Positions 20,327 through 60,472 of a DNA stretch of 64,000 bases are shown piece after piece. Both the position numbers and the translations under genes were made by a program. The notes below the pieces were generated by a model. That model saw only the letters and a list, made by a program, of their open reading frames with translations, was not told the origin of the DNA and searched no databases. Source of the DNA: Verrucomicrobiota bacterium (GTDB lineage Bacteria; Verrucomicrobiota; Verrucomicrobiia; Limisphaerales; JACRJY01); assembly GCA_016235585.1 (NCBI GenBank), contig JACRJY010000136.1, positions 1 through 64,000 on the forward strand, written 5' to 3'. Positions within the stretch are counted from its first letter, which is position 1, and every line of letters begins with the position of its first letter.

Positions 20327-20489
20327 TAGAGCGGTTTAAGTATTGTCGTAACCGCTGATGAAAGGCCGTTCGTCAACCGAGCACCTCCTCTCCCCAGCCC
20401 TCTCCTCCACTCGGCGTGGAGGAGAGGGCTGGGGAGAGGAGGCGTCCACCGCTCCGAATAGCGGCTACGCCATTTTGAAACCGCTCTAA
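20327..20489. mobile_element. 163-bp MITE-like element with 12-bp perfect terminal inverted repeats
   Basis: TTAGAGCGGTTT at 20327-20338 is exactly repeated in inverted orientation as AAACCGCTCTAA at 20478-20489. Inside is a long palindrome at about 20383-20443, whose arms read CCTCTCCCCAGCCCTCTCC and its complement around TCGGC. There is no coding capacity. The structure is that of a non-autonomous transposable or REP/RAYT-like element. No target duplication is obvious. It lies 20 bases after the PfkB stop. Confidence 0.7.
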
Positions 20490-24353: not shown

Positions 24354-24420
24354 AACCACGGAAGACACGGACTACACCGAAAAGAATTATCCTTCCGTGT
24401 GCTCCGTGTCTTCTGTGGTT
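24354..24420. terminator. Long inverted repeat between convergent genes
   Basis: AACCACGGAAGACACGGA (24354-24371) is mirrored by TCCGTGTCTTCTGTGGTT (24403-24420) with one mismatch, around about 30 bases. It sits between the convergent GT2 and alcohol dehydrogenase genes and could end both transcripts. Its sequence is of the dispersed CCGTGTCTTC repeat type. Confidence 0.6.
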
Positions 24421-32752: not shown

Positions 32753-34155
32753 TCGTTGGCGGACTTGCCCTTGCCCTGCGCCGTGGACTTGTAAGGCACC
32801 GGCTCACTGGCGTCCTTCTTCACGTCGGCCTCCCACGCGGCGTAAAGCGCGCTGAGGCGCTGGAGGTCGGCGGGCTTCTTGGCGGCGAGGTTGATGGACT
32901 CGGTCGGGCTGGTGACGAGGTCGTAGAGTTCCCACGGAGCCTGCGCGTCGGGCCGGACGATTTTCCACCGGCCTTCGCGCAACGCGGCGGCTCCGCCCAG
33001 ATGCGCGACGAGATGCGGATATGGCGACTTCGCCTCGCCCGTCAGCGTGGGCAGCGGGTCGTGACCGTCGAGCACGCGGTTCTTCGGCTGCGGCAGTGCG
33101 GCGGCGCGCAGGCAGAGCGGCAGCACATCGAGGTGACTGAGAATTTCCTTCGACTCGGTGCCGGGCTTGATTTTTCCCGGCCAGCGGAAGAACGCCGGGA
33201 CGCGGATGCCGCCCTCATACATCGAGGGCGCATCGCCGCGGAACGGAGCGTTCGACGCGGCATCGAAGCCGTGCTCCGGCCGCAGGATTGCGCCCATGTC
33301 GGAGATGAACATGACGAGCGTGTTCTCGCGCAGGCCGGTGGCGTCGAGCGTGTCGAGCACGCGGCCGATGGCATCGTCGAGCGCGGTGAGCACGGCGAAG
33401 TAACGGCGCTTCTCATTCGTTTCGTCGGCCTTCCAGCCGTAGCGCTCCAGGTATTTTGCCGGCACCTGCCACTCGGGTTTTTCTCCCTTCGCCGTGTTCA
33501 CCGTGCTGACGTAGTGCGGCGCGTTGAACGGGAGATAAACGAAGAACGGCTTCTTCGCCGCAGCCTGCCGCCGGATGTAGTCGCACGTCGCATCGGCGAA
33601 GATGTCCGTGCTGTAACCCTCGACCTTGTGCCGCTCGGTGCCTTGGAAGATGTCGTATTCGCCGTGGTAGGTGTGCGTGAAGTAATTGATGTTGCCCGAG
33701 CGGCAGCCGAGGAACTCGTCGAAGCCGCGCTCGGTCGGCCGGCTGCCGGGCGCGAAGCCGATGTTCCATTTGCCGAAGCACGCCGTCGCGTAACCCGCCG
33801 CCTTCAAATACTGCGGCAGGATGCGCTCGCGATGCGGCAGGCCAATGCCATCCCAGTTCTCGACGGTGCGTAGCTGATGCGTCAGGCCGTTTCGCAGCGG
33901 GTGCCGCCCCGTCAGAATCGCCCCGCGCGAAACCGTGCAGGTCGGCGCCACGACGTAAAAGTCTTTGCACAGCACGCCCTCGCCCGCGAGCCGGTCCATG
34001 CGCGGCGTCTGGATGCCGAGGTTGCCGTAACAGCCGAGGTCGCCGTAGCCGAGGTTGTCCACGTAGATGAGGAGGATGTTCGGCTTGGGCGCGGCGTCGG
34101 CGGAGGTGCCCGCGAAACACGCGAAGGACGCGAAGATAAGGAGAAGGTGTTTCAT
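32749..34155 (-). CDS. Secreted sulfatase with non-canonical CTVSR maturation motif
   Basis: The signal peptide is [21 protein letters not shown]. The type I sulfatase fold is shown by [19 protein letters not shown] (calcium-binding Asp residues), [15 protein letters not shown] (the formylglycine site) and the C-terminal metal site VMFISDMGA. The maturation motif should be C-x-P-x-R, but here Pro is replaced by Val (codons at 33925-33939). FGE conversion may therefore be poor or need another enzyme. The DNLG motif replaces the more usual DDxG. The length of 468 is typical. The gene overlaps DUF1501 at its 3' end. Confidence 0.92.
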
Positions 34156-42292: not shown

Positions 42293-42303
42293 AGGAAGAG
42301 TTT

Positions 42304-42391
42304 TGTCAAACGAATTGGGACAAGCGAATGAGAAGCGGGATGGGAACAGTTTCATGGGGTCTTCATTCGGTTGTCCCAATTCGTTTGTCCA
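42304..42391. repeat. Long palindrome between CocE and sulfatase genes
   Basis: CAAACGAATTGGGACAAGCG (from 42307) is mirrored by CGGTTGTCCCAATTCGTTTG (to 42388). The arms are about 30 bp with few mismatches around a 25-base loop. It fills most of the 130-base gap, one of the few gaps in the cluster. In the CocE frame it is open and would add a 29-residue leader, as in the repeat-led genes nearby, but the better signal peptide starts after it. Confidence 0.7.
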
Positions 42392-42422
42392 AAATTCCCG
42401 GTCCGGCCTTGCGCGGTGACAC

Positions 42423-46411: not shown

Positions 46412-47868
46412 TTCAAGCGATTCAGCAATTTCATCAGCGCGTCCACCATCTTCACCGACGCGTCGGTCTCGACGAGGCCGGTGCCGTGCCACGTCTCGTA
46501 GCCGCCGAGCGCGTGCTGGCGCGGCGTGGCGAGATAACTCATCCAGCCGTTCGCCAGCTCGATGGTGAAGGTGGCTTTGAACGGGCTGCGCTGCTTTATC
46601 TCCAGCCCCGTCTCGGCAAACGTCTCGAACGGACTCGTCGCGATGCCCAGGTCGCCGAGGCGCAACGCCTGCAACGGCACGCTGATTTTCTCCGGCCAGT
46701 CCACCAGCGCCACGAGCCGGCCCGCGTAATCCGTCTCGCGCCGATGCACGAGTTTCACCTTATCCGGCGCGGCGAGCACCACACGGGCGCGCTCGACCAT
46801 CGCGGGTGTGGGTTTGCGCACGGCGAGTTCGAGTTCGCTCATTGCGGCGGCGAGCGGCACCCAGTCGTGGAATTGAACCGTCTTGTGAACGCGCGCGACC
46901 TCGGCGGCGACGTCGTTCGCGACGAGGCGCATCTGCTCGTAGGGCGCGCGGCGCTCCGGTTTTTCGGGACGCACGTTGATGTTGTTCACGTCCCCGCTCG
47001 TGCCGTTGGACATCAGGCCGACGAACGGCGGGTCCAGCCGGTCCGCGCCGAGCAACTGCTGGATGCGGTCGCAAAACATCCCGTAGTAATCCGCCGAGAT
47101 GTGGAGCTGGCCAACGCCGCCGACGTAGTGGAGCGAGTAGTTCGCGAGCAGCGCGATGGGCCGGCCGTTCGTGGACTGCACGGAGACGAACGACACCTGC
47201 GGGTCCACCGGGCCGGCAGGCTCGACGAGGTTGGGGTTGTTGACGCCGGGATTCATCAGCACGCGGTCCTGGCCGCCGACGGGATTGGGCAGCGGCGTGC
47301 CGGGCTTCATGTGCCAGCGGCGGTTGAAGACGTGTTGCGGCACGCTGCCCGCGCCCCAGCCGATGCGCGCGGGTGCGAGGTTGTTGAGCGCGCGGCGAAC
47401 GCCGTCCGCGATGCGCCGCGCCATGAACTTCTGGTAGTCTTCGAGCGGTGTGCCCCACGTGAAGGCGTATTTGCCCATCGCGCTCGGCCCCGAATGCGTG
47501 TGCGTGGCGGAGATGAGCACATGGTCGGCGGGCAGGCCGGTTTCCTTGGCGATGAACTCCTTCGCTAGGTCGTAAACCGGCCGCGTCGCGTGGAGGTTGT
47601 CGCACACGACGATGGCGAGGCGCGTGACGCCGTTGTCGAGCACGAGGCAGCGCGCCCACAACTCGTCGTGGATGTGAACCGACGGCGGGTCCGACGTGCC
47701 GCTGCCCACGATGCCCGCGCCGAGCGGCGGTGTGATGTTGCTGGCGGCTGCGCCGGCGCGGAGTTGCCTGGGCGCGTCAGCGGCGTGCAGCGTCCAGGCC
47801 AAGGCGAGCGAGACAATGAACGCCCGCGTCGCGATGGCGAGCAGGTCAGCGGCGGGTGACTGTTTCAT
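46408..47868 (-). CDS. Secreted neutral/alkaline ceramidase-like protein
   Basis: The signal peptide is AIATRAFIVSLALAWTLHAAD. The ceramidase N-terminal domain is recognised from LRAGAAASNITPPLG, LAIVVCDNLHATR, VLISATHTHSGPSAMGKY (zinc-binding His pair) and LMSNGTSGDVNNINV (the region of the catalytic Ser). Verrucomicrobial and planctomycete homologues occur in polysaccharide clusters and need not be ceramidases. The start [10 protein letters not shown] at 47868 overlaps the 3' end of the DUF1553 gene by 23 bases. The length of 486 lacks the C-terminal Ig-like domain of true ceramidases. Confidence 0.85.
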   Translation of the reverse strand: MKQSPAADLLAIATRAFIVSLALAWTLHAADAPRQLRAGAAASNITPPLGAGIVGSGTSDPPSVHIHDELWARCLVLDNGVTRLAIVVCDNLHATRPVYDLAKEFIAKETGLPADHVLISATHTHSGPSAMGKYAFTWGTPLEDYQKFMARRIADGVRRALNNLAPARIGWGAGSVPQHVFNRRWHMKPGTPLPNPVGGQDRVLMNPGVNNPNLVEPAGPVDPQVSFVSVQSTNGRPIALLANYSLHYVGGVGQLHISADYYGMFCDRIQQLLGADRLDPPFVGLMSNGTSGDVNNINVRPEKPERRAPYEQMRLVANDVAAEVARVHKTVQFHDWVPLAAAMSELELAVRKPTPAMVERARVVLAAPDKVKLVHRRETDYAGRLVALVDWPEKISVPLQALRLGDLGIATSPFETFAETGLEIKQRSPFKATFTIELANGWMSYLATPRQHALGGYETWHGTGLVETDASVKMVDALMKLLNRLK

Positions 47869-50800
47869 CGAGGTTGAAAAGGGCGTGCGCGGTGATGCTC
47901 CACGCGGCGAGTTCGGCCGGATTGAGTTCGTGTCCGCGCGCTGACGCGCCGACGCGGGTGAGACTTTGAGCAGCCTTCGCGTCGGCGGCGAAGCGTGCGC
48001 GTTGTTGACCGAGGAGTCTGCGCAGCACATCGAGTTCACCCTTGTCCGGTTCGCGCGAGGTCACGCGGCGAAACGCGAACTGAAGCCGTTCATCATCCTT
48101 GCCCGATTGCGCGAGCGCGAGGACGGCAAGAGCGCGACCGGCTTCGACGTAGGTCTCGTCATTGAGCAGTGCGAGTGCTTGCAGCGGCGTGTTGGTGCGC
48201 GGGCGGCGGACGACGCACGTCTCGCGCGTCGGGCCGTCGAAGGTGAGCATCGCGGGCGGCGGTGCCTGGCGTTTCCAAAACGTGTAGAGGCTGCGGCGCC
48301 ACAGCCCGTCGCCACGGTCGGCCTGATACGTGAGCTCGCCGTCATACGACACGGCCTCCCACAAACCGGGCGGCTGATATGGCTTCACGCTCGGCCCGCC
48401 GATTTTTTCCACGAGCAAGTCGGAGACGGAGAGCGCCGAGTCGCGAATCATCTCGGCGGAGAGGCGGAAACGCGGGCCGCGCGCGAGCAGGCGGTTGTCC
48501 GGGTCGCGATGGAGCAACGCAGTTGGCGCGACCGAGCTTTGCCGATACGTCGCGCTCGTGACGATGAGCCGGAGAATGTGCTTCACGTCCCAACCGCTGC
48601 GGATGAATTCGCTCGCGAGCCAGTCGAGCAACTCGGGATGTGTCGGCGGTTCGCCTTGTGAGCCGAAGTCGTTCACGGTGCGCACCAGTCCTTCGCCGAA
48701 GCATTGCTGCCACAAACGATTCACCTGCACGCGCGCGGTGAGCGGGTTCGACGGGTCCACGAGCCAGCGCGCGAAGTCGAGGCGCGTGGGGAGCGCGCCC
48801 GTCTCGGGCGCAGTTGACGACGTCCTCGCCGTCAACACTTCGGCGTCCTTGTGTCCGACGCCGGAGTTCGGCGCGCGGACGCGCCGAACCGCGGGCGGGA
48901 CGCCCGCGCTCCCCAGAACGCGGAGGGGCGGGAGCGCGGCGGGTGTGTTCGGTTCGACGACCTCACCCGGCGCGTCGTATTGGCCGCGCATGAGGACGTG
49001 CGCGGTGCGCGGCTTGGCGAGTTCCTGCATCACGAGCGTCTTGGGCAGCGCGGCGCGGAACGTTTCCTCGGCTTCGCGCGCGACGGTGGCGGCGAGATTG
49101 GAATCTCGCGCCACTTGGCCGGCATGGCGCTCGACGAAATGATCGAGCAGGAATTTTTTCTGCTTCGCGTCGCGTTTCTCCGGCGCGACGGCAAGGATGC
49201 CGCGCAGGCGGTCGCTCCAATACCACGACTTCGCCTCATCGCCGCCGATGGCGCGGCGGAACACGCGCAACTCATCGAGGTGGCCGTAGTAGCCGAGGCC
49301 GTTGTCGCGGCGGCCAAGGCGCAGCGGCTGCGAATTGCCCGTCGGCCCGGCAAGCGTGTCGCGCGCGACATTCAGCGGCGCGCTCACGCCATCCACGAAC
49401 ACGCGCACGCCGGCGGCCTTGCGCGAGCCGTCGTAGCTGACGATGACCTGGTGCCAGTCCGCGCGTTTCATCGCGTCCTTGGTGGTGACTTCGATGGCGC
49501 TGGCGACCCAGCGGTGCACGAGGTTGATCTGCAACTGGCCCTTCTGCCACACGATCTCGAAGCCGCGCCGCTCGCCGGTCGGCTCGATCTTGGAGAGGAT
49601 GCAGTTGAGCGAGCCGGTGGGCTTGATCCACAGGCCGATGCTCCATGGACGATCCGCTTCGAGTGGAAGGTCGGCGGGAAGTTCAATGTGCTGCATCGCA
49701 TCGAACAGCGCGGCGTGGCCGAGCACGCCCGGCTCGTGAACGAGGTTGCCGCCTTTCACCACCGCGCGCGACTTCACGTCATCGGGTCCGGCGAGGTCCG
49801 GCTCGAACTCGACGTGCGCGGCAAGCTTGTCCGTGGGCGGCGCGAGTTCGGCGGCGGAATTCTTCTCCCACGACTCCATCGCGACTCGGAGCGGTTTCGC
49901 GATCTGCTCGAACTTTTCCTCGGCGGCCTTTCGCGACGCACGCAGCTTCTCCAACTCGGCGCGCTGCCCCGCCGTCGCCACGTCGAGCGTCGGCGGCGGG
50001 TCGTCGGCGCTGACGAGGCCTTTCTCCGGGCCGTTGTTGAAGAAGGCGAAGAGTTGATAATACTCCTTCTGCGTAATCGGGTCGTATTTGTGGTCGTGAC
50101 AGCGGCAGCAGCCAACGGTCAGGCCGAGCCACACGGTCGAGGTCGTCTCCAGTCGGTCGGCGACGTATTCGACGCGATACTCCTCGTCAATGATCCCGCT
50201 CTCGCCCGTGACCATGTGGTTGCGGTTGAAGCCGGTGGCGATCTTTTGCTCCAGCGTCGCGTTCGGCAGGAGGTCGCCCGCGAGTTGCTCGATGGTGAAC
50301 TGGTCGTAAGGCAGGTTGCGATTGAAGGCGTTGATGACCCAGTCGCGCCAAGGCCACACCTGACGCGCGGTGTCGCGGAAGTAGCCGTTCGAGTCGGAGT
50401 AACGCGCGGCATCGAGCCAGTCCATCGCCATGCGCTCGCCAAAGCGAGGGGAGTCGAGCAGGCGCGTGGCGAGATTCTGGATGCTGGATTCAGGATGCTG
50501 GGTGAAGTCGCGCGCGAACGATTCAACTTCCTCCGGCGTCGGCGGCAAACCCGTGAGGTCGAGGGAAAGCCGGCGGATGAGGGTGCGTGGATCGGCAGGC
50601 GGCGCGGGTGGGAGTTTATCTTTCTCCATGCGCGCGAGGACGAAGTTATCGATCGGATTGCGGATTTCAGATTTCAGATTTCGGATCTTCGGCACCGGCT
50701 GGCTGGCGATCGGTTTGAACGACCAGTGCTCCTGATATAACGCGCCCTCGGCGATCCAGCGGCGGAAGAGTTCGCGCTGCTGCTGCGTGACGACGAGGTG

Positions 50801-51121
50801 CGAATCTCTCGGCGGCATCCGGTCGTCCTCGTCCTTCGTGAAGAGGCGGCGGACGACTTCGCTTTGCTCCGGCTTGCCCGGCACGATGGGCACGGCACCG
50901 GACTTGGCGGGTTTGAGCGCCTGCTCGCGCACATCGAGCCGCAGTCCGGCCTTGCGCGCCTTCGCGTCGAAGCCGTGGCACTTGAAGCACGTGTCCGACA
51001 TGACCGGCCGGATGTCGCGCTGAAAATCCACCGCCGGCTTCGCCGCCGCCGCGAGGGAGCGATCCGCCGGCACCGTGACGGCCACGGCAAGCAGCTTGAA
51101 GATGAACGCAAGGCGCTTCAT
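47846..51121 (-). CDS. PSCyt1-DUF1549-LamG-DUF1553 secreted cytochrome-like protein
   Basis: The 1091-residue product has a signal peptide ([19 protein letters not shown]) and a PSCyt1 domain with haem site CFKCH (about 45-49). The PSCyt2/DUF1549 domain (about 160-370) has a second site, [12 protein letters not shown] LamG/concanavalin-like insert (about 450-640) and a DUF1553 (PSD1) domain (about 760-1060) follow. It is probably a periplasmic electron-transfer partner in glycan oxidation. The usual DUF1501 partner is 15 kb away. Between LamG and PSD1 is a repeat-encoded in-frame segment (about 48788-48914). Two short stretches ([24 protein letters not shown]) also look repeat-derived. Confidence 0.92.
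48788..48914. repeat. Dispersed repeat inserted in frame in the DUF1553 gene
   Basis: The ends are inverted and similar (GGGGAGCGCGCCCGTCTCGG against GGGGAGCGCGGGCGTCCCGC, read inwards). The interior has further GC-rich palindromes such as GGCGCGCGGACGCGCC. It translates as [18 protein letters not shown] and about 20 further residues, unlike any PSD1 sequence, just before the conserved [19 protein letters not shown]. Confidence 0.7.
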
Positions 51122-55151: not shown

Positions 55152-57929
55152 CTACAGCCAGATTTGGCCGGGGAATTTCTTCACCAGCGCCGGGCGCAGT
55201 TTCGGATACTCGTGCGCCTTGAAGTGCGGCCAGTCGCAGGTGGAGGCCGCACGCTTGCCGTCGGGTGTGCAGAGCCAGAGCTTCACCGGCAGCGTGCCCT
55301 CGCAAATCAACGGGTGGAACGGCAGTTGAAAACACTCGTGCAACTTCACCTGCGCCTCCGGCGAGAGCGCCTCGCCCTTCGCGGGGCTGACTTCCTCGGA
55401 ATAAGTCAGCTTCACCTTGCGGCCATCGTGCCAGGTGATGTTCGTGGGCGTGAGTTCGTCGAGCCAGCCGGCGCGCTCCGGGCCGAGGTGCGCGGCGAAG
55501 GCGTCCTTCAGCGGCGCAGCCTGCGCCTCCTTTTGCAGCGACAGACCGTGAAACGCGCGCGTCAGGCACGCCGTCATTGCCGCGTCGTCGAACGGCGGAA
55601 ATTCCAAGTCCGGCATCGCGGCGCACACGAGGTTCGCGCGGGCGATGAACTGGCGCACCTCGTGGTTCTTCATCGGCAGCTCGAACCATTCCTTCATCAC
55701 CGCGTCGGCGAGACAGCGGCCCGAAGCCGCCGGGTCGTGCTCGCGCTGGTGCTCGTGCGCGATCACGAGGTCGCGGAAGCGCGTGAGCTTCACCGCCGCG
55801 ACGCGCTTGTGCGTGCGGTCGAAGAGATGCTCGATCTGCGCCGTGACGTGCTGCGGAAAAAGTTCCGCGAGCCACTCGCGCTTCACCCCGGTCGCGAGGC
55901 CGAGCAGCGTGAGATTGCCATGGCCGCGCCCGGCGACCTCGCGAATCGCGGCGGTCACGAACAGCGGGGAATTTTGCACGACGCTCTCGCGCATCAGCGT
56001 GCCCTGCCGGCCTTCGGTAAGCTCGCACTCCAGTGTGCCCTGGTCGCGACGGATGGCAACCTGGTCAATGAATCCGGCGCAGAGGCATTTCAACAGCGCG
56101 TCGTCGGTCACTGACTTGGTAGGGCCGCGCTGCTGCGCGGCCTTTTCGTCACTCATCTCTGTTTTATCAAGGACGCGCGGCAGCGCGTCCCTACCGAGCA
56201 GCCCGCTCCGCTCGCAGATTTGGAGAATCTGCTCGTAAGTCTGGTCCACCTGCCGCGCCGTCTGCGCGTGGATGCCGTAGCGGCGGCAGGTTTCGGGATT
56301 GAAGGCGCTCTTCTTCGCGAACTGGAACGCACGGATCAGCGTGTAAAAATCCGAGTCCTGGCTGGCCTCGAACAATTCCCGCGTCTCGGCGATGTGCTTG
56401 TCGTCGCGGCCCAACCGCATGAGCATATCGCGCCCGCTCACCAGCGCCGCACAGAGCGCCGCCGCCGGCACGCAGCCGCGCCGCCCCGCCTCGACCAGCA
56501 TCCGCGAGTAGCGCGGGTGCATCGGCAGCCGGAGCATCTGGCGGCCAATTTCTGTCAAAGTCGAGGGCCGAGAGACGGGTGTCGAGAGCTGGACGCCTTG
56601 ACTCTCGACTCTCGTCTCTCGTCCCTCGACCTCTTCCTGAAGCGCGCCCAGCATCACCAGCAATTTCTCCGCGCGCTCGACGGCCTGCGGGTCGGGCTTG
56701 TCGAGCCAGTCGAACTCCGTTGCGCGCTTGATGCCGAGCGAGTGAAGCAGCAACACCACTTCCGCGAGGTCGGCGCGTTGAATCTCCGGCGTGTTGCGCT
56801 CCGGGCGGTTCAAGTGGCCGCTCTCCGTCCACAGCCGCCAGCAGGTGCCGGGCGCGGTGCGGCCCGCACGGCCCTTGCGCTGGTCGGCGGAGGCCCGGCT
56901 GATTTCCTCGATCATCAGCGTGCTGATGCCGCGCTCGGCGTCGTAGCGCGAGACGCGCGCGATCCCGCTGTCCACCACGTGCCGGATGCCGTCAATCGTC
57001 ACGCTCGTCTCCGCGACGTTGGTGGCGACGACGATTTTGCGAAGCGGATTCGGCGCGAACGCGAGATCCTGCTGTTCCGAAGGCAAGTCGCCGTGCAGCG
57101 GAACGAAAACACATTGCTCGCTCAACCTTGCCGCGCGCAACGCGCCGATGGTGGAGTTGATTTCGCCCATGCCCGGCATGAAAACCAGAATGTCGCCCGG
57201 CCCGCCGCCATTGACGATGCTCTCGACCGCATCAGCAGCCTGCTCGGTCGCGGGCCGGCGGTCGGCGTAGTCGAGCCAGCGCGTCTCGACGGGGTAGGCG
57301 ACGCCTTCGCTGATCAAAATCGGAGCAGGTGGGAAAGTGAGAGAGTTGGAAAGCGGGCCTGGCAACTCGCCCGCTTTCCCACTTTCCCGCCTGCCCACTT
57401 TCTCACCTGCCTGCCCCAGATAATCCGCCACCGGCTCGGCGTCGAGCGTGGCGGACATGACCACGATTTTCAAATCGGGCCGGCGCGTCTGCTGAAGATG
57501 CTTCACCAGCGCGAGCGCCACGTCGCTCAACAGGTTGCGCTCGTGAAACTCATCGAACAGCACCGCCGCCACGTCCGACAGCTCGCGGTCATCCTGCAGC
57601 CAGCGTAGGAGAATGCCCTCGGTTACGTAGCAGATGCGCGTGCCAAGGCTGGTGTGATCTTCAAAACGAATCTGGTAGCCGACCTCGTCGCCGAGCTTGC
57701 ACTTCCGCTCCCACGCCACGCGCGCGGCCACGGTGCGAGCGGCGACACGGCGCGGCTGCAGCACGACGAGTTTCTTTCCAGCCGGGATTCCCGCATCCAG
57801 CAGCATCTGCGGCACCTGCGTGGTCTTGCCGGAGCCGGTGGGCGCGACAAGCACGAGCCGGTTGCCGGACTGCAACTGGCCGACGATGGCGGAGTGGATT
57901 TGCCAGATCGGCAGGGAGAGATTGGCCAC
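55152..57929 (-). CDS. hrpB: ATP-dependent helicase HrpB with three repeat-encoded insertions
   Basis: This is a DEAH-box helicase. Walker A is VAPTGSGKTTQVPQ, Walker B is LFDEFHERNLLSD (the DEFH variant of HrpB), motif III is MSATLD and motif VI is DQRKGRAGRTAPG. HrpB C-terminal motifs are LTYSEEVSPAKGEALSPEAQV and WPHFKAHEYPKLRP. It is 925 residues long, and three palindromes account for about 78 of them (57326-57409, 56560-56630 and 56118-56195, about 28, 24 and 26 codons). Without them the length would be about 847, normal for the family. The start is GTG at 57929, 15 bases after the TMEM14-like stop. The cellular role of HrpB is poorly known. Confidence 0.93.
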   Translation of the reverse strand: MANLSLPIWQIHSAIVGQLQSGNRLVLVAPTGSGKTTQVPQMLLDAGIPAGKKLVVLQPRRVAARTVAARVAWERKCKLGDEVGYQIRFEDHTSLGTRICYVTEGILLRWLQDDRELSDVAAVLFDEFHERNLLSDVALALVKHLQQTRRPDLKIVVMSATLDAEPVADYLGQAGEKVGRRESGKAGELPGPLSNSLTFPPAPILISEGVAYPVETRWLDYADRRPATEQAADAVESIVNGGGPGDILVFMPGMGEINSTIGALRAARLSEQCVFVPLHGDLPSEQQDLAFAPNPLRKIVVATNVAETSVTIDGIRHVVDSGIARVSRYDAERGISTLMIEEISRASADQRKGRAGRTAPGTCWRLWTESGHLNRPERNTPEIQRADLAEVVLLLHSLGIKRATEFDWLDKPDPQAVERAEKLLVMLGALQEEVEGRETRVESQGVQLSTPVSRPSTLTEIGRQMLRLPMHPRYSRMLVEAGRRGCVPAAALCAALVSGRDMLMRLGRDDKHIAETRELFEASQDSDFYTLIRAFQFAKKSAFNPETCRRYGIHAQTARQVDQTYEQILQICERSGLLGRDALPRVLDKTEMSDEKAAQQRGPTKSVTDDALLKCLCAGFIDQVAIRRDQGTLECELTEGRQGTLMRESVVQNSPLFVTAAIREVAGRGHGNLTLLGLATGVKREWLAELFPQHVTAQIEHLFDRTHKRVAAVKLTRFRDLVIAHEHQREHDPAASGRCLADAVMKEWFELPMKNHEVRQFIARANLVCAAMPDLEFPPFDDAAMTACLTRAFHGLSLQKEAQAAPLKDAFAAHLGPERAGWLDELTPTNITWHDGRKVKLTYSEEVSPAKGEALSPEAQVKLHECFQLPFHPLICEGTLPVKLWLCTPDGKRAASTCDWPHFKAHEYPKLRPALVKKFPGQIWL
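56118..56195. repeat. In-frame palindromic insertion 3 in hrpB
   Basis: The arms GGTAGGGCCGCGCTGCTGCG and (inverted) GGTAGGGACGCGCTGCCGCG bound a 28-base spacer, 78 bp in all. It translates as about 26 residues (RDALPRVLDKTEMSDEKAAQ and following) between GLLG and SVTDDALLKCLCAGF. Confidence 0.75.
56560..56630. repeat. In-frame palindromic insertion 2 in hrpB
   Basis: The 29-base arms (GTCGAGGGCCGAGAGACGGG and, inverted, GTCGAGGGACGAGAGACGAG) differ at only about three places and flank a 13-base loop. The encoded stretch VEGRETRVESQGVQLSTPVS sits between LVMLGALQE and LTEIGRQMLRLPMHP, which are adjacent in ordinary HrpB. Confidence 0.78.
57326..57409. repeat. In-frame palindromic insertion 1 in hrpB
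   Basis: 84 bp (28 codons) begin CAGGTGGGAAAGTGAGAGAG and end with the imperfect complement CACTTTCTCACCTG. The inner arms GGAAAGCGGG / CCCGCTTTCC are perfect. The encoded AGEKVGRRESGKAGELPGPL and following residues lie between DAEPVADYLG and APILISEGVAYPVE. Confidence 0.78.
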
Positions 57930-59989: not shown

Positions 59990-60472
59990 GCCCAAGGCCC
60001 GCGCGGCTCGCCGACGGCTTGGTTTTCAGCGGAGAATCCTGATTGGAACCAACGGAGACACCGGGACACGGCACCAAAGGCAAAAGTTAAAAGGAAAAAT
60101 CTGCTCCTCCGTGCCTCCGTGGTTTCAATCCGAATTCCGAAGCGGATGAACAGGAGGCCACGGAGGGAAACAGAGAACAGATCAAGACCTCTGCAAAACT
60201 CGCCGACAAGCGGAGCGCCGAGCATCGCTCGGCCCGGTTATCGAGGGTTTCTTGCCGAGCAATGCTCGGCGCTCCGCCAGAATGATGGCTTTTGCAGAGG
60301 TCTCAGATCATCTGGCCGGGTGAAAATTATCCGGTGGCTGCCCGGCCAAACAGCTGCCCCTCGGTTTCCTCGGTTTGATCTGGTCAACCGTGGACACCAA
60401 ACGCGGGCCGCCGCCGGCGCGTCCGCTGAAAACTGAATTGCCGCCGGCCCGGCGCGCGGCTAGGTTCGCGGC
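59990..60472. other. Repeat-filled intergenic region
   Basis: These 483 bases hold no supportable gene. From left to right are phrases of the CCGTGCCTCCGTGGTTTCAA type (about 60106-60130), the inverted-end element at 60180-60310, and a spacer leading to the zinc-ribbon gene. Confidence 0.6.
60180..60310. mobile_element. 131-bp MITE-like element with GAGACCTCTGCAAAA-type ends, copy 2
   Basis: GATCAAGACCTCTGCAAAA (60180-60198) is mirrored by TTTTGCAGAGGTCTCAGATC (60290-60309). The interior contains the inverted pair CGGAGCGCCGAGCATCGCTC / GCCGAGCAATGCTCGGCGCT. There is no coding sequence. Its termini match the element at 6044-6117, though the interiors differ. Confidence 0.68.

Follow-up and report, generated by a model that had tools for sequence, protein, structure and literature searches.

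The window analysed here, 64,000 nucleotides of a Verrucomicrobiota contig, carries on its minus strand an hrpB gene (55152..57929, GTG start) that encodes a DEAH-box helicase of 925 amino acids with the Pfam domains DEAD, Helicase_C, HA2 and HrpB_C. Three palindromes lie inside the coding sequence, and despite them the reading frame is intact and the ORF uninterrupted. The host genome (4.6 Mb in 221 contigs, about 90% complete) has the appearance of a metagenome bin. HrpB relatives are present in 49 of the 58 genomes searched; these relatives are from Verrucomicrobia, many of them labelled Limisphaerales or Pedosphaera, and the window protein is 42–74% identical to 27 aligned HrpBs of the same order. 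In the nearest sister pair, L122 and L123, purifying selection acts on the core of HrpB (dN 0.048, dS 0.60), and the hrpB product is presumably active. The L122 and L123 records are labelled Klebsiella pneumoniae MAG and Proteobacteria bacterium MAG, respectively; their HrpB is verrucomicrobial and close to the window gene, so these labels look wrong.

The first palindrome, P1 (57323..57404, minus strand), has arms of degenerate 8-base units (GAAAGTGG / GCAGGTGG) around a 10-base spacer and codes for residues about 175–203, between RecA domains 1 and 2. P2 (56560..56630, minus strand), whose arms consist of degenerate 7-base units (GTCGAGA/G) on either side of a 13-base spacer, codes for residues about 434–457 in the winged-helix (HA2_N) region. 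P3 (56118..56195, minus strand) is an inverted dimer of the GTAG REP type and codes for residues about 578–604, past the HA2 region and ahead of the beta-rich part of the protein. Its monomer 1 (56171..56195, minus strand) reads G-GTAG-GGACGCGC-TGCC-GCGCGTCC and forms a perfect 8-bp stem, while monomer 2 (56118..56142, plus strand) reads G-GTAG-GGCCGCGC-TGCT-GCGCGGCC and differs from it in the stem by one compensated change, from an A-T to a C-G pair. Both monomers have the GTAG tetranucleotide adjoining a short stem-loop by which GTAG REPs are defined. Folded as single-stranded DNA, P1, P2 and P3 have energies of −27.4, −28.7 and −29.0 kcal/mol (z of −5.9, −6.7 and −6.5), and no shuffled sequence was equally stable. 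An earlier note on this DNA had placed three in-frame inverted repeats here and judged them mutually unrelated in sequence; the former is confirmed, at the positions given there, and the latter is supported. An Rfam search of the window returned no matches.

We aligned HrpB from 29 other same-order loci and then from 80 named contigs. Most homologues have few residues separating ...YL from (C/A)PIL at site 1, while their sites 2 and 3 measure about 10 and about 15 residues; those of the same order are gapped at exactly the three sites. The corresponding loops of the window protein measure 28, 27 and 33 residues, compared with means of 5.1, 11.5 and 15.6 in HrpBs free of hairpins. An excess of about 78 residues had been ascribed to the repeats; this is close to the coding length of the palindromes (about 80 residues) and overstates the net excess at the three loops relative to hairpin-free HrpBs, which is about 56. 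Because of these alignment gaps, P1 and P2 probably arrived by insertion, the comparison genomes all standing outside the host's own family or genus and showing neither a clean empty site nor a target duplication. An AlphaFold2 model of the window HrpB has a mean pLDDT of 83.9, and nearly all positions below 50 are found in residues 177–195, 436–454 and 583–605, which are the three inserts. In this model each palindrome would code for a disordered loop, the inserted peptide being a disordered linker with no evident function.

The same loops are occupied in other HrpB genes. Across 99 non-redundant verrucomicrobial HrpB genes, 20 hairpins reach a stem score of at least 16 where 0.33 are expected from synonymous-codon shuffles, a control that preserves both protein and codon usage; palindromes with long bulges, such as those of L042, escape this score, making all hairpin counts lower bounds. 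Eighteen of the 20 fall within three loops (residues 171–203, 428–463 and 577–607 of the window protein), where they represent about a dozen families, and one lies in a fourth loop at residues 47–51. The remaining hairpin, at 466–491 in L122, is probably a chance occurrence. The occupants include GTAG REP dimers (L160, L161, L164, L169, L193), a CCCTCC-type palindrome (L064) and tandem-unit hairpins built of units such as GATTTAC (L117, L118), AATGACG (L043), or GGTGTGAG and CAGTGTT (L122). Occupancy differs even between the sisters L122 and L123, whose HrpBs are 92% identical in amino acids and 86% in nucleotides: site 2 holds an AATTGCG-type hairpin in L122 and a GTCGAGA-type, P2-like hairpin in L123, and the site 3 hairpin of L122 is absent from L123. 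Site 1 is also enlarged, with the same flanks, in the three nearest relatives (L052, L122 and L123), so that the site-1 insert of the window gene may be older. With an enlarged site 1 in all three and a P2-like hairpin in one, the idea that this particular hrpB took three independent hits of its own is unsupported. Among hairpin-free HrpBs, no part of the protein varies more in length than sites 1, 2 and 3, and 7- or 8-base tandem remnants outside hairpins occur in 24 of 3,547 windows in the three loops versus 1 of 79,830 elsewhere. The three HrpB loops are recurrent targets, occupied by different repeats across the phylum. This recurrence and the mixture of two repeat classes had both been overlooked in the earlier note.

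To place these elements in their genome we surveyed 0.80 Mb of stretches sampled from the 4.6 Mb, with gene calls from a simple codon model. Hairpins scoring at least 16 number 117, with none in dinucleotide shuffles of about 0.32 Mb; 76 have a nested stem in the arm (REP-like), 27 have tandem-unit arms and 14 are of other kinds. Twenty-six lie inside ORFs, or 24 once two doubtful ones that resemble ordinary coding sequence (window position 33375 and L094 position 7647) are removed. A strong palindrome occurs in about 15% of ORFs of 500–1300 amino acids (17/113 in the sampled part of the genome), and intragenic elements have more open frames per element than intergenic ones (4.17 vs 3.22, p 0.009). 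Within the 64 kb of the window, strong intergenic palindromes of four different families lie at 20384–20442, 24354–24420, 42298–42397 and 60185–60303. A PDB search with a CusA-like protein at 1e-170 gave no matches.

P1 and P2 belong to the tandem-unit class, with arms of tandem 7- or 8-base units and a copy-specific spacer; spacers of such palindromes are near random from copy to copy. Neither has a GTAG head, and no copy of either lies beside any of the seven Y1_Tnp loci of the host. The GTCGAGA family of P2 has five copies in the host genome, in hrpB, recG, mfd, a PSD1 gene and possibly rmuC. All five are in long ORFs, four of them backed by conserved domains around the insert, and the unit is stop-free in all six frames. 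In the window, a PSCyt1/PSCyt2/PSD1 gene (47846–51121) contains an in-frame palindrome (48787–48915) and a 7-base tandem array. P1-like copies occur in 9 of 58 same-order genomes, the host included, with 13 matches in G037 and 8 in G038, and some are inside ORFs with nuoG, priA or uvrA-like domains. Exact degenerate patterns for the P1 and P2 hairpins found no match in 195 genomes of the phylum, a sample that held no other same-order genomes and a set of patterns that missed known copies in the host itself. Arm identity is 0.84 within and 0.82 between copies for P2, and 0.86 within and 0.76 between copies for P1; concerted evolution of the two arms is therefore unsupported for P2 and weak for P1.

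Elsewhere in the genome the REP unit of P3 is matched 29 times, at about 20 sites, with several of the matches arranged as dimers. Further genomic copies had been proposed as a check of the insertions, alongside the alignment; they were found for all three palindromes, and neither of the contrary outcomes named beforehand (close homologues from other orders with the same residues at these sites, or a lack of other copies) was obtained. Seven Y1-transposase matches are present in the host genome. Three of these RAYT loci (L070, L073 and L074) carry their own matching REP family on both flanks, establishing RAYT/REP pairing for REP families other than that of P3. The REP of P3 (GGTAGGGACGCG palindrome) is absent beside all seven loci in this genome, which is about 90% complete. 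At L109:4208-8199 (G000:C178), a Y1 (RAYT) transposase gene together with a REP dimer splits alaS; the transposase shares one frame with the C-terminal half of AlaRS (1040 amino acids), and the N-terminal half lies in another. At L108:2-1669 (G000:C74), coding sequence for a Y1 transposase, along with a REP palindrome, continues in frame into a C-terminal region like that of DnaE (HHH_6, OB fold).

Recurrent loop occupation extends to other genes. In the same genomes Mfd has 14 hairpins versus 0.67 expected and RecG has 6 versus 0 expected, mostly confined to a small number of variable loops. One and the same loop can hold different 7-base arrays in different genomes, as RecG loop 464–487 does across six genomes. 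The short-array period spectrum of the host genome peaks at 7, with a harmonic at 14. The 0.80 Mb contain 56 7-base tandem arrays of 33 distinct units, 29 of them inside genes, as against none in shuffles and none in 50 kb of E. coli; 45 of the 56 have no overlap with a strong palindrome. Genes with at least two 7-base arrays number 5, compared with 1.17 by chance, a count reached in 3 of 2000 random placements. The single ORF of the host mfd (L102:6275-10156, G000:C8) accommodates 7-base arrays of five different kinds along with one or more REP-type palindromes, and mutL (L106:15199-17262) three 7-base arrays and one palindrome. In recG (L075:4010-6169), the GTCGAGA palindrome at residues 382–427 seems partly to replace residues of the Thermotoga RecG structure (1gm5). 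Palindrome-bearing genes include those for HrpB, RecG, Mfd, MutL, a DnaE-like protein, a type III restriction-type helicase and a DNA methylase, together 7 of 18, compared with 2 of 20 control ORFs.

The explanation we favour, at a probability of roughly 0.7, is that dispersed palindromic repeats are tolerated in permissive HrpB loops, which are refilled recurrently. According to this model, two kinds of small dispersed palindromic repeat would have entered hrpB at the loops best able to tolerate extra residues. P3 is a REP dimer, a type whose copying is attributed to Y1 (RAYT) transposases; P1 and P2 each consist of two opposed arms of 3–4 degenerate 7- or 8-base units, a REPIN-like build without the GTAG head. 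Insertions would land widely, and the survivors would be those that keep the frame, carry no stop codon and sit in a permissive surface loop. Such loops would therefore be refilled repeatedly, with old inserts decaying or losing one arm, so that loops fill, decay and refill. The in-frame repeats, their dispersed copies, their location in loops and their recurrence across lineages are direct observations. Several points count against the model: P2 arms are no more alike within a copy than between copies, the recG segment seems to be a partial replacement and not a pure addition, P1 and P2 have no enzyme linked to them, and the REP of P3 flanks none of the seven RAYTs. A more specific proposal, which we advance tentatively, is that a candidate process, so far undescribed, generates or spreads short arrays of many different 7-base units, often as inverted pairs. 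The arrays would be left in fixed permissive loops, preferentially of DNA-repair and RNA-helicase genes, and the repeat content of a loop would turn over faster than species diverge.

Tandem-unit palindromes could instead be made in place with no mobility, by template switching in a hairpin and then slippage of 7-base units in tolerant loops. The variation of units by gene and by species (33 distinct heptamers in 56 arrays, several of them in the host Mfd), the location of most heptamer arrays clear of strong palindromes and the similar likeness of P2 arms within and between copies all fit such an origin. Local error alone does not predict the sharing of units that is seen: GTCGAGA is present in five host genes with no relation to one another and again elsewhere in the order, in other families, and among intergenic families CACAGATGAAA, for example, has 11 similar copies. 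We consider in-place origin unlikely. Selection for the inserts, with hairpins regulating repair and RNA-processing genes through mRNA or DNA, or with peptides serving as functional linkers, would accord with the share of genes of repair or RNA-processing type among palindrome carriers, the excess of multi-array genes and a repair bias noted earlier (PMC3733652). Yet the inserts are absent from most homologues and differ in sequence, family and presence between sisters, the loops vary even without hairpins and have pLDDT below 50, and the functional bias comes from small counts, which together make selection improbable. Chance inverted repeats or an assembly artefact might be suspected in a genome of 221 contigs that looks like a metagenome bin, but shuffles yield no comparable hairpins and the same loops are filled in many independent assemblies, and we give this explanation almost no credence.

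Under the favoured explanation of tolerated, recurrently refilled loops, our results indicate that in bacteria other than rickettsiae, housekeeping genes can harbour non-REP tandem-unit palindromes in frame, and that unrelated repeats reuse the same protein loops in many lineages. The occurrence of palindromes in so many mid-sized ORFs bears on annotation and protein-length evolution, and cautions against assigning function to insert peptides. Why heptamers are over-represented among bacterial tandem repeats is an old puzzle, which the 7-base period and the diversity of units make testable in one clade.

P3 is of a known repeat type, the GTAG REP, and within a limited literature search, which turned up no account of in-frame tandem-unit palindromes within verrucomicrobial genes, the in-gene elements P1 and P2 appear to be undescribed for this group. 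The earlier view that in-gene palindromes are not established here does not hold for REPs, as GTAG REPs inside genes, the kind to which the P3 dimer belongs, have been published for Opitutus terrae, the richest case, with insertions in RNA helicases, DNA ligase and, as double inserts, uvrA (PMC3733652). Like the GTAG REPs and BIMEs of Di Nocera et al. 2013 (PMC3733652), P3 has a GTAG head, a short stem-loop, an inverted-dimer arrangement and many copies, and like those of O. terrae it lies in frame in a helicase gene of the same phylum; P1 and P2 differ from them in having no GTAG head and arms of tandem units. Rickettsia palindromic elements (PMC10969869) resemble P1 and P2 in comprising several families that lie in frame in unrelated ORFs and are tolerated in the protein. 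By description they are about 150 bases long versus 71–82 for the hrpB repeats, and P1 and P2 depart from them in their arms of 7–8-base tandem units and unconserved spacer. The CGTC terminus, a feature of the Rickettsia elements (PMC3733652), is not a family feature of the P1 and P2 arm ends, P2 ending in GTCGAG.

REPINs (Bertels and Rainey 2011, PMC3116915) share with P1 and P2 inverted repeats, a variable spacer, a predicted hairpin and dispersal, but they are defined as extragenic (PMC3116915), whereas every P2 copy is in a long ORF and neither P1 nor P2 is near a RAYT. Dispersed heptamers, GGGAATC of Xanthomonas and GGGGA(T/C)T of Nostoc (PMC4692102), are like P2 in their 7-base units, their dispersal and their many convergent (inverted) pairs. 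GTCGAGA/G units do not each contain the GGG run of G-quadruplex type that GGGAATC has, and the P1 unit has 8 bases. In that study a single unit type is followed per lineage, 7–11% of it intragenic; here 0.8 Mb contains 33 units, and 29 of the 56 arrays lie in genes, at shared protein loops. A repair-gene bias and repeated hits in one gene have already been noted for intragenic REPs (PMC3733652). Shared insert positions were described there only for recB of two Xanthomonas species, whereas here different families refill the same loops across many genera.
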